A DNA stretch of 64,000 bases from Fluviicoccus sp. (GCF_030646115.1 NZ_JAUSMX010000027.1:1-64000), one strand, 5' to 3'. Positions 46,851-54,174 are shown, counted from the stretch's first letter. The notes: generated by a model not told the origin, from the letters alone. Numbers and translations are program-made.

Positions 46851-46898
46851 GCTCTGCATGAATTAATCTAATTTCCATTAGATTAATTCATGCAGAGC
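46851..46898. promoter_or_regulatory. Perfect 22-bp inverted repeat before the TetR/desaturase operon
   Basis: The left arm, beginning GCTCTGCATGAATTAATCTA, is mirrored exactly by the right arm ending TTAATTCATGCAGAGC, with TTCC between them. It is strikingly AT-rich. The right arm contains an ATG in frame with the TetR gene, and the repeat ends 6 bp before the preferred start. It could be the operator of the TetR protein, an RNA hairpin covering the start, or both. Confidence 0.8.
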
Positions 46899-46904
46899 CG
46901 CCCC

Positions 46905-47504
46905 ATGGCCAGACCGAAGAAAATTGCCGGCGCCCCCGACACCCGCGAACTGATCCTGAACGCCGCCTGCGAAGAATTCGCCGTCACCGGCGCTTCAGCG
47001 CGTCTGGAAGACATCGCGGCGCGTTGCGGCATCCGCAGTGCGTCCCTGATGTACTACTTCCCGTCCAAGCAGGCCCTGATGGACATCCTCTTCGAACGGG
47101 TCGCCACGCTCCTCGCCATCCGCTCGCAGGAAGCCTTCCGCCTGGCCGACGGCAATTATGCCGCCGCCATCCGCGGCGTGACGCTGGCGATCCGGCAGGT
47201 CGAGGAAGAACAGATCGGCACCGCCAATGTGATGCTGCACGCACTGCTGAGCGAAGACAGCCACGATGCGCTCAAACAGCAACTGCAGCAGTTGCTGGAC
47301 CTGATTACCGGGCTGGCCATGAGCGCCGGTGCGCACAGTTACCATTCCCGCGAAACCGTTCACGCCGTCATCACTCACATCTGCATGGGCGAACTGACCC
47401 GGCTCGCCTTGGGCAGCAAGGCCGAGCGCTATTGGGGCGCCGAAGATGCCGTGATGCCCCTCATCGAAGAATTCTTCAAACTTAAACCGGAAAGAGGACA
47501 CTGA
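46905..47504 (+). CDS. TetR-family regulator of the desaturase fusion, 199 aa
   Basis: TetR helix-turn-helix (CEEFAVTGASARLEDIAARC followed by GIRSASLMYYFPSKQALMD). The stop codon is 1 bp from the next ATG, so regulator and desaturase are translated from one mRNA. Such pairs (for example DesT with DesB in Pseudomonas) sense acyl-CoA saturation and control desaturation. The start MARPKK is preferred; an ATG at 46890 lies inside the inverted repeat and adds five residues. Confidence 0.88.
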   Translation: MARPKKIAGAPDTRELILNAACEEFAVTGASARLEDIAARCGIRSASLMYYFPSKQALMDILFERVATLLAIRSQEAFRLADGNYAAAIRGVTLAIRQVEEEQIGTANVMLHALLSEDSHDALKQQLQQLLDLITGLAMSAGAHSYHSRETVHAVITHICMGELTRLALGSKAERYWGAEDAVMPLIEEFFKLKPERGH

Positions 47505-47505
47505 C

Positions 47506-49743
47506 ATGGGCTCAATCACCGCCGCCGCCGCCATCGAACAGGCAGGCGCCGCCACCCTGGCGGAAGACCTGCAGGCGCTCTATGACGAGGCCCGCGCCCG
47601 AATGGGGGACGAGGATCTGGCCCATATCCGCAAGGTCGCCGCCTATTCGCGCGCCATCAAGGCCCGCAGCCGCGAGCTGATCCAGAAAGGCGGCAAGCCG
47701 GATGCGCTCAAGCGCGGCATCGCGCTCTACATGATGCATGTCCTGCTGGAGTTCTCGGAGCTCGGCCACAACATCATGCATGGCAGCTTCGACAACCTGC
47801 CCGGTGTCGGCGAGTTCCATTCGGATAAATGGCAGTGGGATTTCGTCACCGATGTCCGGGAATGGAAGGTGATGCACCACCAGAATCACCACCCGTTCAC
47901 CAACATTGTCGGCAAGGACCACGACCTGGGCTATTCCTTCGTGCGCCTCTATCCCACGCAGAACTGGTATGGTCACCATGCCGTACAGCCCGCTGTGCTG
48001 GCCGTGCTGCTGTTCCATGTCTACCATTTCAGCCTCTACACCGCGACCTCCGCCGCGCGTGTGGAAGGCCGCAAGGTGCTGAGCCTGGACACCTTCCGCG
48101 CCACCTTTGACCGGGTCAAAAAGCACGCCCTGCAGAATTACCTGAAGGAGCCGCTGGAAGCCGGTCCCCGCTTCCTGCAAACCCTGGTCGGCAACTATCT
48201 GGGCACCGCCCTCGGCTATGACCTGACCTTCCTGATCCTGGCGCTGGAACACCACTCGCCCAACGTGGAGGTCTTTCCGGATCCGGGTCCCACTGAAACC
48301 CGTGACGGGTATTTCCGGCGGCAACTGCTGGGCACCACCAATTTCGTGCCCATGCCGGAACTGGACAGTTTCTTCGAGCGCATTCTGGCCGAGGAAGTGG
48401 ACTTTCCCGACCGACCCTCGTTCGAGGTGTTCTATGGCGGTCTCACCACCCATATCGAGCACCACCTGTTCCCCGACCTGCCGTGCAACCGCCAGCGTGA
48501 GATTGCGCCTAAGGTGCGCGAACTCTGTGCGAAACACGGCCTGCCGTACAACGTCACCACCTTTGAGGTGATTGTCCCGGAGATCCTGCGCAATTTCTTC
48601 CGGTGGGCGATGCCGGTCACCGCCGCCGAGCAGGATCGTCCTTCCCTGCTGCTGAAGAAGCCGCGCGAGCTGGTCTCGCGGGTGCTGAACGGCCTGCGCT
48701 ATCGCAGCCCGACGCCGACCACTTATTTCAAGGCGCCTGGTTACTTCAACGTGCCGGCGAAGGTGCTGGCGGCCACGCCCGCCGCCGGTGGCCAGGCCCT
48801 GACCCTGACGCTGGAAAAACCCTTCGGCTGGGATGAGGTCCACTGGGACGCGGGGGCCTTCATCTCGGTGCGGGTGCCGGTGGACGGCGAGGACCTGGTG
48901 CGCCAGTACAGCCTCACCACCGACAGCCGCGGCGGCAACACCCTGGACATCACGGTGAAGCGGGTGCAAGGGGGGCGGGTCTCGAATGCGATCAATGACC
49001 GCGTGCGCAAGGGATCGTATCTGACACTGGTGGGGGGGCCGCAAAGTGACGGCAGCTTCATCATGAAAGCCCTGCCGCAGCGCCCCGTCTTCATTGCCGG
49101 CGGCGTCGGCATTACGCCCATCATCAGCATGATCCGCAAGCTGCACCGCGAAGCACCCAATACCGAAGCCACGCTGCTGTATTTCAACCGCGATCCGGCC
49201 TCCATCATCTTCGAGCAGGAGTTGCGCGTCCTGGAAATGCAGACCGGGCTCAAGCTGCACCTGATCTGCGACCAGGCGCCTGCGTCGCGGCGTGAACTGG
49301 TGCAGGCCAGGCTGTCACAGGCCTTGCTGGAGGAGTGCATCGGCTCGCTGGCGGAGGCGGATATCTATGTCTGCGCCCCGCCGGGCATGATCGGGGCGGT
49401 GCAAGGGCATCTGCTGGCGATGGGGCTGCCCGAGGCGCGCTTCCACACCGAAAGCTTCACCCTGCCGACGCTGGTGCGCCCGAAAAGCGATGGCCGGCAG
49501 CACAGCATCCACTTCGTGCGTTCCGGGCTGAAGGTCACGGTCGACGGCGCCACCACGCTGCTGGAGGCCTCACGCCAGGCGGGCATCCATGTTCCCACCG
49601 GTTGTGAACGCGGCCTGTGCAAGGCCTGTGTCTGCACCAAGATCAACGGCGTCACCCAAGAGGACGCGCAGGCAGACATTCCGCTGGTGCGCATCACGAT
49701 GTGCAACAGCCTGCCGCGCTCAGACGTCGAACTCGACATCTGA
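47506..49743 (+). CDS. Fatty acid desaturase fused to a ferredoxin reductase and [2Fe-2S] ferredoxin, 745 aa
   Basis: Residues about 70-360 are a membrane desaturase with three His boxes: HNIMH (88-92), HHQNHH (124-129) and HIEHH (316-320). Residues about 405-640 are a flavodoxin-reductase-like module with the FAD motif RQYSL (466-470) and nucleotide motif AGGVGITPI (531-539). The last 90 residues are a plant-type ferredoxin with Cys700, 705, 708 and 733 (GCERGLCKACVC...C). Normally these are separate proteins (DesB with DesC). The fusion would carry electrons from NAD(P)H through FAD and the cluster to the diiron site in one chain. Acts at the inner membrane. Confidence 0.93.
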   Translation: MGSITAAAAIEQAGAATLAEDLQALYDEARARMGDEDLAHIRKVAAYSRAIKARSRELIQKGGKPDALKRGIALYMMHVLLEFSELGHNIMHGSFDNLPGVGEFHSDKWQWDFVTDVREWKVMHHQNHHPFTNIVGKDHDLGYSFVRLYPTQNWYGHHAVQPAVLAVLLFHVYHFSLYTATSAARVEGRKVLSLDTFRATFDRVKKHALQNYLKEPLEAGPRFLQTLVGNYLGTALGYDLTFLILALEHHSPNVEVFPDPGPTETRDGYFRRQLLGTTNFVPMPELDSFFERILAEEVDFPDRPSFEVFYGGLTTHIEHHLFPDLPCNRQREIAPKVRELCAKHGLPYNVTTFEVIVPEILRNFFRWAMPVTAAEQDRPSLLLKKPRELVSRVLNGLRYRSPTPTTYFKAPGYFNVPAKVLAATPAAGGQALTLTLEKPFGWDEVHWDAGAFISVRVPVDGEDLVRQYSLTTDSRGGNTLDITVKRVQGGRVSNAINDRVRKGSYLTLVGGPQSDGSFIMKALPQRPVFIAGGVGITPIISMIRKLHREAPNTEATLLYFNRDPASIIFEQELRVLEMQTGLKLHLICDQAPASRRELVQARLSQALLEECIGSLAEADIYVCAPPGMIGAVQGHLLAMGLPEARFHTESFTLPTLVRPKSDGRQHSIHFVRSGLKVTVDGATTLLEASRQAGIHVPTGCERGLCKACVCTKINGVTQEDAQADIPLVRITMCNSLPRSDVELDI

Positions 49744-50430: not shown

Positions 50431-51636
50431 TCAATGTCCGGACACGATCCGGAGATCCCGGTCCGGCCGCAGACGCAGGAACACCGCCAGCGCAACCAGC
50501 GCCAGCGCCGCCGCCAGCAGGAACGCCGCCGCCGGATGCAACAGCCACAAGGCCCCCGCCACCAGCGACGCCGGCAGGTACAGCATACCGGTCACGAAGT
50601 TGTACATGCCCATGGCGGAAGCGCGACGGTCCTGTTCCAGATCAGCAATGAAAGCCTTGCTCTGGGCTTCATCAATGGCATAGAACACGCCGAACATCAC
50701 GAACAGGGCAATGATCTCCGCCTGGGTGGTGGCGACGGCGAAACCCAGACACATCAGCATGTAAGTCAGGTAACCCAGCATGATCATGCGCGCCCGGCCC
50801 ACCCGGTCGCTGATCTTGCCGATCAGCGGCGCGGTCACCACGCAGGCGATGTTGAACAGTGCATACAGCAGCACAATATCCTTCACCGCAAAACCGACGC
50901 TGTAGGCGCGCAGCAACAGGAAGCTGAAACTGAAATAGGCCAGCGAGAAAATGCCGGAGCTGACCAGATAACGCTTGAAGGCCGGGCTGAGCGTGCCCCA
51001 GGTGGCAAACAGGTTCTCGCGCTCATGCGGCTTGCCCGGCTTGTCTTCCACCATCGCCAGCACGCCGATGCTGAGTACGGCGGGAACCATCGCCACCCAG
51101 AACAACACCTGATACGTGGCCATGCCCTCGCCCAGCCACGACAGCAGCGCATAAGCCAGCAACGGCCCCAGCACCGCCCCGGATTTGTCCAGCGCCTTGT
51201 GCACGCCAAAGGCGTAACCCCGGTTGCCCTGTGCGGCGACAGCGGACAGCCAGGCGTCACGCGGCGGACCGCGAAAGCTTTTGCCCAGCCGCTCAATGAC
51301 CCGGAAGACGGCCAGACCGGTCACCGAGCTGGAAACCAGCAGGATGATCTTGGCCAGCGTCGAAAAACCGTAACCGGCAATCGTAAAGATCTTGCGCTTG
51401 CCGCTGCGGTCGCTGAGCCAGCCGGACAGGTAATTCAGTGAGGAGGCGGACAGGTCGGCCAGCCCCTCGATCAGCCCCAGCAAGGCCGCCGACGCCCCCG
51501 CCACGGTGGTGAAAAAAATGGCGAAGACGGAAAAGATGATTTCGGAACTGAGGTCGGTCAGGAAACTGACCAGCCCCAGCTTCAGGATATCGGGGTGCAC
51601 ACCGGGTTGGGGGGAAGAAGGATCATCGGACCCCAT
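50431..51636 (-). CDS. Major facilitator superfamily transporter, 401 aa
   Basis: Twelve hydrophobic segments, the MFS loop motif GWLSDRSGKRK after helix 2 and a second copy GKISDRVGRAR after helix 8. N-terminus LVSFLTDLSSEIIFSVFAIF. The ATG overlaps or nearly touches the cytochrome gene's stop codon; a TTG two codons earlier is also open. It is the last gene of a four-gene operon with cytochrome and flavoprotein genes. Its substrate is unknown; a link to the respiratory chain of the operon is suggested by the context only. Confidence 0.9.
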   Translation of the reverse strand: MGSDDPSSPQPGVHPDILKLGLVSFLTDLSSEIIFSVFAIFFTTVAGASAALLGLIEGLADLSASSLNYLSGWLSDRSGKRKIFTIAGYGFSTLAKIILLVSSSVTGLAVFRVIERLGKSFRGPPRDAWLSAVAAQGNRGYAFGVHKALDKSGAVLGPLLAYALLSWLGEGMATYQVLFWVAMVPAVLSIGVLAMVEDKPGKPHERENLFATWGTLSPAFKRYLVSSGIFSLAYFSFSFLLLRAYSVGFAVKDIVLLYALFNIACVVTAPLIGKISDRVGRARMIMLGYLTYMLMCLGFAVATTQAEIIALFVMFGVFYAIDEAQSKAFIADLEQDRRASAMGMYNFVTGMLYLPASLVAGALWLLHPAAAFLLAAALALVALAVFLRLRPDRDLRIVSGH

Positions 51637-51638
51637 GA

Positions 51639-52361
51639 TCAATCATCCCCTTCCCCACCGCCTTCACCACCCCGCCTATCGCCTTCATCCGCACCCCGGT
51701 GGCACTCCGCACAATCCTCGAAGTTGCGGATGCCCTCTTCCTCGTGCTCGTTGCGGATATTGGCCGGGGTATGCTCGTGACAGCCATAACAGGTATAGGT
51801 GCGATAATTATTGCGCACATGGCAGGTGGCGCACGGCACATTGTGGTCACGATCCAGCACGAAGTAGCGGTTATGGTCGAAGGTGGCCGGTGTCCAGCGC
51901 TCCTGGGTGTGACACTGGTTGCAACTGCCGCTGATTTGCCGGTGCAGGTTGTCCCGGGGGGCGGTGTGGCAGGTCTGGCACTGCTGTAATGTCTGCGGCT
52001 GCAGCAGGGCATGGTTGAAACGGCCCTGCTGCCGGAAACGGCGGACACCGGTATGGTCGCTGTGACAGGCCATGCAGTCCTGGCTGATCAGCTTCTGGTG
52101 GAAGGGAATGGGGCTGAGGGGCTTCGCCAGCGGTGCGCCGGTGCTGGTGAGGCGGCCAATGTCGGCGGGTTTGTGGCAACTCATGCAGCGGTCGGCCTGC
52201 GCCCCCAGGAACGGGGTATGGCAGGCAAAACAGTCCGTTTCCAGCGCATGATGCGCGGGCACCAGCTTGCCGGGGCTGACCATCAGTTGCGGGTAGACAA
52301 ACACCAGCAGCGCCAGAATACCGATATTGACGGCCAGAACCCATATCACCAAGCGCTTCAT
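51639..52361 (-). CDS. Membrane-anchored octaheme c-type cytochrome, 240 aa
   Basis: Eight CxxCH haem-binding motifs: CFACH (44), CMSCH (59), CMACH (96), CQTCH (128), CNQCH (147), CATCH (177), CYGCH (191) and CAECH (217). An N-terminal membrane helix (about 4-24) anchors it facing the periplasm. This is the cytochrome c3/c7-like multihaem class that stores or relays electrons. The ATG overlaps the preceding gene's stop codon (ATGA); the long in-frame extension upstream is inside that gene. The His/Asp/Glu-rich tail is unusual. Confidence 0.9.
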   Translation of the reverse strand: MKRLVIWVLAVNIGILALLVFVYPQLMVSPGKLVPAHHALETDCFACHTPFLGAQADRCMSCHKPADIGRLTSTGAPLAKPLSPIPFHQKLISQDCMACHSDHTGVRRFRQQGRFNHALLQPQTLQQCQTCHTAPRDNLHRQISGSCNQCHTQERWTPATFDHNRYFVLDRDHNVPCATCHVRNNYRTYTCYGCHEHTPANIRNEHEEEGIRNFEDCAECHRGADEGDRRGGEGGGEGDD

Positions 52362-52933
52362 GACCAACCCCAGAACAGGAAGATGCTGACGATATGGCCC
52401 AGCCCCAGAATCACGAAAATGAAGAAGATGGGAATGTGGATCTTGCGCCACTTCGCCATGGCATCCAGGGTCACGGCATCCCAGAACACGGCATCATCCA
52501 CGGCCACGCGTGACAGGCCCCGCAACTGGAAACGTTCGCGCTGCGCCTGTACATGGCGGCGCGAACGCTCCAGCAGCAACTTGCCGACCATGCCGCTGAC
52601 CACGTTGACACCCATGGCCGCCGTGGCCAGCCAGGGCAGGATGGCATTGAAGTGGATACCGGCATGCAGCAACACCATCCACGAACCCAGCCAGGCGGCA
52701 ATTTCGTGGAATTTCAGCATCGACTTCAGGTTGCCGGAAGCGATGTACTTCCGCTTGCGCAGGGAATAGGCCAGGGAAGCCATGATCAGCAGCGTGCCGG
52801 GAATGCCCAGATAACGCCCCACCCAGACCAGGTTCAGCCGGTGCAACAGATAGTCTCCGGCCAGGGTGGCCGCCGCCAGCAGGCCCAGCAGCAGCGCGAA
52901 GGGCAGCACATGATGACGCCATAACGAAGTCAT
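52358..52933 (-). CDS. DUF4405-like cytochrome b-type membrane protein, 191 aa
   Basis: Four or five hydrophobic helices with His residues inside them (KFHEIAAWLGSWMVLLHAGI H, and KIHIPIFFIFVILGLGHIVS). Two pairs of His on neighbouring helices could bind haem b, as in the cytochrome b561/ferric-reductase superfamily. It would pass electrons across the membrane from the flavoprotein gene before it to the multihaem cytochrome gene after it. Gaps of 2 bp upstream and an overlap of 4 bp downstream show tight coupling. Confidence 0.8.
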   Translation of the reverse strand: MTSLWRHHVLPFALLLGLLAAATLAGDYLLHRLNLVWVGRYLGIPGTLLIMASLAYSLRKRKYIASGNLKSMLKFHEIAAWLGSWMVLLHAGIHFNAILPWLATAAMGVNVVSGMVGKLLLERSRRHVQAQRERFQLRGLSRVAVDDAVFWDAVTLDAMAKWRKIHIPIFFIFVILGLGHIVSIFLFWGWS

Positions 52934-52935
52934 GG

Positions 52936-54174
52936 TCAGGCCTCCAGGATCAGGTCGGTCTTGGGGGTGCAGACACAGAGCAGGCAGGAGCCGGGTTCGG
53001 GGTCATAATCCGGTTTTTGCTCATAGCTGACCTCACCGTCGGCGATAACAGTCTGGCAGGCGCCACAGCCGCCGGCCCGACAGCCGGAGTCAACACCAAT
53101 TCCGTTGGCCTCCGCAAATTCCAGCAGACTGCCGGCGCCCGGTTGCCAAAGCAGCTGCTTGCCGGAACGGGCGAAATTCACCCGGACAACAACCGCTTCC
53201 CCTGCAACCGCCTGCACCGCCGGGCGACGCACCGAGGCCGGTCCGAAGGCTTCAAAATGGACACGTTCATCCGCCACGCCCCAATCAGCCAGCCCGGCCA
53301 CCAGGCACTCCATCATCGCTCCGGGACCGCAGAGGTAGAATTGATGCGGCTTCAGCGACAAGTGCAGTCGCAGCAGCGGGATATCCACCCGTCCCCGGTG
53401 TTCATAATCACGACCGGCCACGTCTTCCGGCCGGGGATCACTGAAGCACCGCCACAACCGCAAGCCGGGGTGGGCGGCGGCCAATTCCGCCAGCCGCGAC
53501 GCCATCACCATCTCGCGCCCGTTCCTCACGCCATAGAACAACCAGACTTCGCGTCCCGGTTGTTCAGTCAGGCACCACTCCAGCATGCTCAGCATCGGGG
53601 TAATGCCAATGCCGCCGCCAATCAGCACTACCGGCTCGTCACGCCGGTCGAGGAAAAAATGCCCGGAGGGCGCACGCACCTGCAACAGGCTGCCCGGTTG
53701 CACGTGGTCATGAAAAAAACAGGATGACCGCCCTGGAGGATGACCGTCCGCGCCGGGCACCCGCTTGATGGAAACACGATAATGATCAGGCCGGGGAGAA
53801 TCGGACAGGGAATAGCAACGAATCAGCGGAGCCGCCGCCTCTGCACCGGCATCCAGGTGGAAAGTCAGGTATTGCCCGGGCAGGAACGGTGGCAGGGCTT
53901 GGCCGTCTTCGGCAACCAGGTAAAACGAACACACCGAGTTTGCCTCATCCTCCATGACCTTGCGTTGCACCCGGAACGGCCGGAGGCCGGGCCATGCGGG
54001 CGGGGGGGCCGTCTGATCAGGCGCAGGGACGGCTTCGGGCAGTTGCAGACCCAGGGCCTGGCGGTGCAGGGCTTGATGCGCCAGCCAGTGCTGCCAGAAG
54101 CTATATCCCAGCCAGACCGCCAGCTGCAGCGCCACGGCCAGCACAATCCATAACGTCAGAGACAACGAAGTCAC
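52936..54174 (-). CDS. Membrane-tethered FAD/[2Fe-2S] oxidoreductase, 412 aa
   Basis: An N-terminal membrane helix (about 5-27) precedes a ferredoxin-reductase module: FAD motif RCYSLSDSP (about 130), nucleotide motif GGGIGITPMLSMLE (about 187), CGPGAMME near 280. A C-terminal [2Fe-2S] domain has GCRAGGCGACQ...CLLC. It takes electrons from NAD(P)H in the cytoplasm. The start is a GTG behind GAGGAGGGGGAGCCTT; first gene of the operon. Together with the b-type and c-type cytochromes it forms a plausible NADH-to-periplasm electron path. Confidence 0.9.
   Translation of the reverse strand: MTSLSLTLWIVLAVALQLAVWLGYSFWQHWLAHQALHRQALGLQLPEAVPAPDQTAPPPAWPGLRPFRVQRKVMEDEANSVCSFYLVAEDGQALPPFLPGQYLTFHLDAGAEAAAPLIRCYSLSDSPRPDHYRVSIKRVPGADGHPPGRSSCFFHDHVQPGSLLQVRAPSGHFFLDRRDEPVVLIGGGIGITPMLSMLEWCLTEQPGREVWLFYGVRNGREMVMASRLAELAAAHPGLRLWRCFSDPRPEDVAGRDYEHRGRVDIPLLRLHLSLKPHQFYLCGPGAMMECLVAGLADWGVADERVHFEAFGPASVRRPAVQAVAGEAVVVRVNFARSGKQLLWQPGAGSLLEFAEANGIGVDSGCRAGGCGACQTVIADGEVSYEQKPDYDPEPGSCLLCVCTPKTDLILEA

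Follow-up and report, generated by a model that had tools for sequence, protein, structure and literature searches.

Enzymes of the FRD/NOX superfamily, and likewise MsrPQ, hold two haems b on two pairs of histidines, receive electrons from a flavin NAD(P)H reductase and pass them outward. In the PCC3 and PCC4 systems, the inner-membrane proteins (IMPs) have five helices, with an SGXXG motif on helix 4 and WX3HX13H motifs on helices 3 and 5, are encoded next to a multihaem cytochrome gene and have been inferred to carry two haems b (He et al. 2017, PMC5566968). The same study mentions other, unnamed clusters that combine a multihaem cytochrome of the periplasm with a short IMP bearing two HX13H motifs and, usually, another redox protein; most have no porin, no function was assigned to them and a role in extracellular electron transfer (EET) was judged less likely (PMC5566968). 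The subject of this report is a three-gene unit on the minus strand of a 64,000-nucleotide stretch of Fluviicoccus sp. DNA (NZ_JAUSMX010000027.1:1-64000, hereafter the window) which, as judged from its sequence, is a WX3HX13H membrane cytochrome with a multihaem partner of known type, in this case with an NAD(P)H flavoprotein as electron donor. With the unnamed clusters it has in common the short IMP, the additional redox protein and, as in most of them, the lack of a porin. Beyond the brief mention in PMC5566968, no named operon of this kind was found in the literature searched; the first-pass annotation of this DNA, which knew of no named system with this gene set, was thus right as to the name, although the cluster type had been mentioned, without a function, and is not wholly undescribed. 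The genes concerned, together with the transporter gene that follows them, are:

52936-54174, minus strand: gene 1, membrane-tethered reductase with FAD, NAD(P) and [2Fe-2S] domains, 412 amino acids
52358-52933, minus strand: gene 2, five-helix membrane protein predicted to bind two haems b, 191 amino acids
51639-52361, minus strand: gene 3, octahaem cytochrome c, 240 amino acids with eight CXXCH motifs
50431-51642, minus strand: major facilitator superfamily (MFS) transporter, 403 amino acids (MFS_1, 4.8e-39)

Genes 1 to 3 form a strict conserved unit. Unless stated otherwise, counts for relatives refer to the best 80 of 561 GTDB stretches, all from other genomes, that encode relatives of the cytochrome. 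The three genes stand in the same order at 79 of these 80 loci, the contig of the eightieth (L047) beginning too late to include gene 1, and the 4-bp overlap between genes 2 and 3 recurs at all 76 loci where the three genes could be measured; their grouping is thus not a matter of chance. A frame change divides the reductase gene at one locus (L041). Nearly all of the loci are labelled as betaproteobacterial (Rhodocyclaceae, Accumulibacter, Gallionellaceae, Thiobacillus, Sulfuritalea, Rhodoferax, Zoogloea), and a class-wide search found the set in orthologous form, 50-60% identical, in several more genera. In the window, open reading frame (ORF) calls agree with the coordinates, strand and gene order given in the first-pass annotation. 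The GTG start of the reductase is preceded by a strong GGAGG-type ribosome site, a gap of 2 bp separates it from the membrane protein gene, and the cytochrome begins at a conserved ATG at 52361, within an ATGA overlap with gene 2, the longer ORF listed for it beginning upstream. A promoter scan gave no signal above chance. The MFS gene is joined to gene 3 through a TTGA overlap, or by a 2-bp gap if counted from its own ATG; however, no MFS relative adjoins the unit at any of the 80 loci, which marks this gene as a local addition and rules it out as a part of the system. Of the four-gene set first proposed, genes 1 to 3 are therefore retained and the transporter is not.

The membrane protein is the element that ties the unit to described families. 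Across 81 sequences the histidine pairs H76-x13-H90 and H166-x13-H180 are invariant, as are W162-x3-H166 and S113-G114-x2-G117; the tryptophan placed four residues ahead of the first histidine is present on helix 5 (W162), and helix 3 has M72 instead. Five helices are seen in an AlphaFold model of low confidence (pLDDT 61), used for the helix count alone. In profile comparisons with hhalign, the gene 2 family matched eight WX3HX13H proteins of about 300 amino acids encoded beside multihaem genes at 98.4% (E 8e-15), these eight being remote relatives that do not include the named PCC3 proteins themselves, and matched two shorter relatives (L116, L121) at 95.9% (E 5.5e-9). The remote relatives recovered by profile search measure about 250-310 amino acids; the motifs are present in most of them, and every one inspected adjoins a multihaem cytochrome. 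By these motifs gene 2 is a member of the WX3HX13H/SGXXG inner-membrane group, and its ligand pattern indicates that it probably binds two haems b; the two invariant pairs thus support the b-type assignment made earlier. The distribution of basic residues (59-62, 118-142, 161-164) suggests that H76 and H166 lie towards the cytoplasm and H90 and H180 towards the periplasm. In comparison with PCC3 and PCC4, the unit has neither a porin nor giant multihaem cytochromes, its IMP is shorter (191 versus about 300 amino acids), the tryptophan of WX3HX13H is confined to helix 5, the feed is an NAD(P)H flavoprotein and the haems c number eight.

The gene 2 protein of the window has no Pfam match, a PDB sequence search gave no match, and a Foldseek search with the pLDDT 61 model returned nothing significant. 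Among 36 members of the gene 2 family, none matches PF01794 (the FRD superfamily) at E 10, and 15 weakly match DUF4405, a family for which haem b binding has been shown in vitro (PMC11334425; preprint PMC10979944). DUF4405/FezC proteins resemble gene 2 in being membrane cytochromes with four central histidines (PMC11334425), but the unit is coupled to a multihaem cytochrome c and no ApbE-type gene was recognised among the recurrent neighbours examined. At five further loci (L117, L118, L119, L124, L127), WX3HX13H membrane proteins are paired with 10-haem proteins of 532-578 amino acids whose N-termini, by eye, look forkhead-associated (FHA)-like; PMC10734462 lists a forkhead-associated protein with 10 haems.

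Gene 3 encodes exactly eight CXXCH motifs, all invariant among 81 sequences, and nine more histidines are invariant in the same set (37, 88, 103, 117, 140, 163, 173, 197, 206), so that bis-histidine ligation is possible for every haem. Residues 1-31 are hydrophobic, and the product is predicted to be a membrane-anchored periplasmic octahaem cytochrome c. Pfam places it with Cytochrome_C7, Cytochrom_c3_2 and Cytochrom_CIII, a PDB sequence search gave two weak matches of c3 type, and its AlphaFold model is of low confidence (pLDDT 48). Kinship with octahaem tetrathionate reductase, HAO or ONR was considered and rejected, as all eight motifs are CXXCH and Pfam and, weakly, the PDB indicate the c3/c7 kinds. 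One ortholog (L114:3501-4482) has a C-terminally extended frame with 12 CXXCH motifs that ends at the contig edge.

The reductase is built in the order transmembrane helix, FAD domain, NAD(P) domain and plant-type [2Fe-2S] domain, with hydrophobic residues 1-28 at its N-terminus and Pfam matches to NAD_binding_1 (1e-20), Fer2 (3e-11) and FAD_binding_6 (5e-4, slightly below the cut-off). C365, C370, C373, C397 and C400 are invariant in 77 sequences. Its nearest solved structures by PDB sequence search are the reductase part of flavohaemoprotein, phthalate dioxygenase reductase and NqrF. NqrF likewise combines a single N-terminal transmembrane helix with FAD, NADH and [2Fe-2S] domains, but differs in domain order, Fer2 coming last in gene 1, and no NqrA-E partners were found in the unit or among the recurrent neighbour clusters of the 80 loci.

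All members of the unit's own clade have an FAD/NAD/[2Fe-2S] reductase as redox partner. Outside it, a 7-haem cytochrome is partnered at L116 and L121 by a distant FAD/NAD/Fer2 reductase (31% identity), and at L125 (7774-9816, minus strand) a flavoprotein with Pyr_redox_2 and a BFD-type [2Fe-2S] domain is fused to a WX3HX13H membrane domain beside a 10-haem cytochrome; the same fusion, again beside a 10-haem cytochrome, occurs at L126 (9156-11201, minus strand), the domains being judged by eye. By sequence, then, both this clade and two other arrangements have an NAD(P)H flavoprotein in the place of the "other redox protein" of the unnamed clusters, which is new here. One kind of membrane cytochrome is thus found repeatedly with different NAD(P)H flavoproteins, which supports direct transfer from NAD(P)H and favours direct input over input from quinol.

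Taken together with the invariant ligands, the domain content supports the order of carriers proposed in the first-pass annotation, from NAD(P)H through FAD, [2Fe-2S] and haem b to the octahaem cytochrome c. Cytosolic NAD(P)H would reduce the FAD of the tethered reductase; single electrons would then pass through the [2Fe-2S] cluster to the cytoplasm-side haem b (H76/H166), from there to the periplasm-side haem b (H90/H180) and on to the eight bis-histidine haems c of the anchored cytochrome. The octahaem protein would hand them to a periplasmic acceptor, the most plausible candidates being soluble dihaem cytochromes, SHP-type cytochromes handling O2 or NO, or some other periplasmic substrate under the same control. 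Gene content, the strict unit, the invariant ligands, the order of the domains and the linkage in the genomes are read directly from the sequences; the haem b content, the topology and the direction of flow are what we infer from them, and the acceptor more weakly still. The electron-flow reading has good support, and we hold it probable that the unit is an electron line from NAD(P)H to the periplasm; that genes 1 to 3 encode an oxidoreductase working between NAD(P)H and a periplasmic multihaem cytochrome c and delivering to a periplasmic acceptor, plausibly of the SHP/DHC type, we likewise regard as probable.

Also new is the clear association of the unit with SHP/DHC operons, along with its clustering with CDF metal exporter genes. 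SHP (DUF1924) binds oxygen and is reported to oxidise NO, and acts in the SHP/DHC/CytB pathway (PMC2909971). By tblastn, an SHP gene lies within about 8 kb of the unit at 21 of the 80 loci, usually accompanied by DHC, a cytochrome b561 or ferric-reductase-like (FRE) flavocytochrome, PepSY and a two-component system; a chance SHP neighbour is estimated at about 0.4% per locus. When the 80 loci are collapsed into 52 groups at 90% identity, 13 groups have SHP and 18 have a CDF gene. SHP is present in 20 of 24 unit-bearing genomes (the window's own included) as against 57 of 369 in the class (Fisher p 0.003); in the window's order the figure is 13 of 293. The genome of the window itself has an SHP-DHC-cytochrome b561 operon and, divergent from it, genes for PepSY, a response regulator and a kinase (L128:7791-12012; G000 contig 4, about 167790-172011), and the kinase carries the SGRYWQ and RSRSLWD motifs given for the SK1 type. 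The two systems would be alike in that a periplasmic haem c chain leads to an O2-binding cytochrome, but the donor classically assumed for SHP is quinol, acting through CytB (PMC2909971), whereas the unit would bring in NAD(P)H.

Several observations weigh against the proposed reading, above all against delivery to SHP. The co-occurrence test ignores phylogeny, SHP may be common in unit-bearing betaproteobacteria, and the class sample includes just 8 unit-bearing genomes. The SHP operon of the same genome has its usual cytochrome b561/DHC donor and sits on another contig, and at 59 of the 80 loci the DNA examined contains no SHP gene, many of the contigs being short. Given this usual donor and a co-occurrence that ignores phylogeny, SHP is a plausible acceptor only, and we think it rather doubtful that the SHP branch is the main one.

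An alternative outlet is the reduction of soluble Fe(III), flavins or other oxidants by the octahaem cytochrome at the periplasmic or cell surface, in the service of acquisition, detoxification or electron disposal. Such a metal or extracellular reductase would fit the c3/c7 kinds to which Pfam assigns the cytochrome, the many iron or sulfur bacteria among the hosts and the presence of a CDF cation exporter gene at 30 of the 80 loci, directly downstream of the octahaem gene on the same strand at 24 of them, with P-type ATPase and ZIP-like genes nearby in a few. CDF genes directly downstream, which point to a link with metals, are exemplified by L068:9063-9950 and L078:8761-9651. The hosts, however, include polyphosphate accumulators and Zoogloea too, no CDF gene adjoins the unit in the window, and for porin-less clusters of this kind He et al. 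2017 (PMC5566968) considered a part in EET less likely. A census of the genome by a single pattern, CXXCH motifs with 20-50 bases between them, found no other closely spaced CXXCH protein save for one chance-like match, and hence nothing that points to an outer wire like those of Mtr or PCC3; likewise, no porin or outer multihaem cytochrome gene was found in the window neighbourhood, nor any outer-membrane haem conduit in the genome. We regard a role as metal or extracellular reductase as unlikely. The first-pass annotation had left the choice between an external acceptor and a periplasmic enzyme encoded elsewhere: the former is the less likely of the two in view of this census, and the latter has found a candidate in the SHP/DHC/cytochrome b561 operon.

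The proposed NAD(P)H:cytochrome c line has also to be set against a quinone-linked cytochrome b, in which electrons would move between the membrane protein and the quinone pool, with the reductase feeding or draining that pool. Gene 2 does belong to the WX3HX13H/SGXXG group, and He et al. 2017 (PMC5566968) hypothesised that the PCC3/PCC4 members of this group are quinone-active, but the reductase is kept with the unit in 79 of the 80 loci and the covalent attachment of a flavoprotein to the membrane domain at L125 and L126 favours direct transfer, which makes this exchange quite improbable. The unit resembles FRD/NOX enzymes and MsrPQ in its flavin NAD(P)H donor and, as predicted, in two haems b on two histidine pairs and an outward path of the electrons, and departs from them in lacking a PF01794 match, in its five predicted helices, in the separate [2Fe-2S] reductase and in the octahaem cytochrome c of the operon. 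That the unit is a split NOX-like producer of superoxide or peroxide, in which the octahaem cytochrome would be no more than a minor relay, is very improbable, for although the HX13H pairs and the FAD/NAD reductase recall FRD/NOX enzymes, the cytochrome is found in every locus with all eight haem motifs kept, PF01794 is matched by none of the 36 members and NOX enzymes do not typically have a [2Fe-2S] domain.

The quinol pool is commonly regarded as the source of electrons for many multihaem cytochromes. If the proposed reading is true, an NAD(P)H-fed line would give the periplasm electrons of lower potential that bypass the quinones, in bacteria that matter for wastewater and for the nitrogen and iron cycles. 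More tentatively, and with somewhat less than an even chance, the unit may stand for a class of transmembrane NAD(P)H:multihaem-c reductases, widespread and so far unnamed, that combine various flavoproteins with one kind of small dihaem b protein as a quinone-independent, low-potential periplasmic supply, in part driving orphan SHP. The link to SHP makes the role of the unit testable and bears on the function of SHP and on the source of its electrons.

The unit was not found in the other 292 sampled genomes of the window's order, nor in 36 other genomes of the same family, apart from one weak, stop-bearing cytochrome match (G017). Its closest relatives, at up to 69% identity, are betaproteobacterial, and in a tree the window falls on a long branch within the betaproteobacterial set with no supported sister. 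Horizontal transfer is thus likely. Since the base composition of the unit (0.625) matches that of the window (0.614), the transfer, if it occurred, was probably not recent. Identical units are present in two metagenome-assembled genomes labelled Accumulibacter and Dechloromonas (L057 and L059), reflecting recent transfer or mis-binning. Elsewhere in the window, a 745-amino-acid protein in which a fatty acid desaturase is fused to an FAD/NAD/[2Fe-2S] reductase is encoded at 47506-49743 on the plus strand, directly behind a TetR gene (46890-47504, plus strand).

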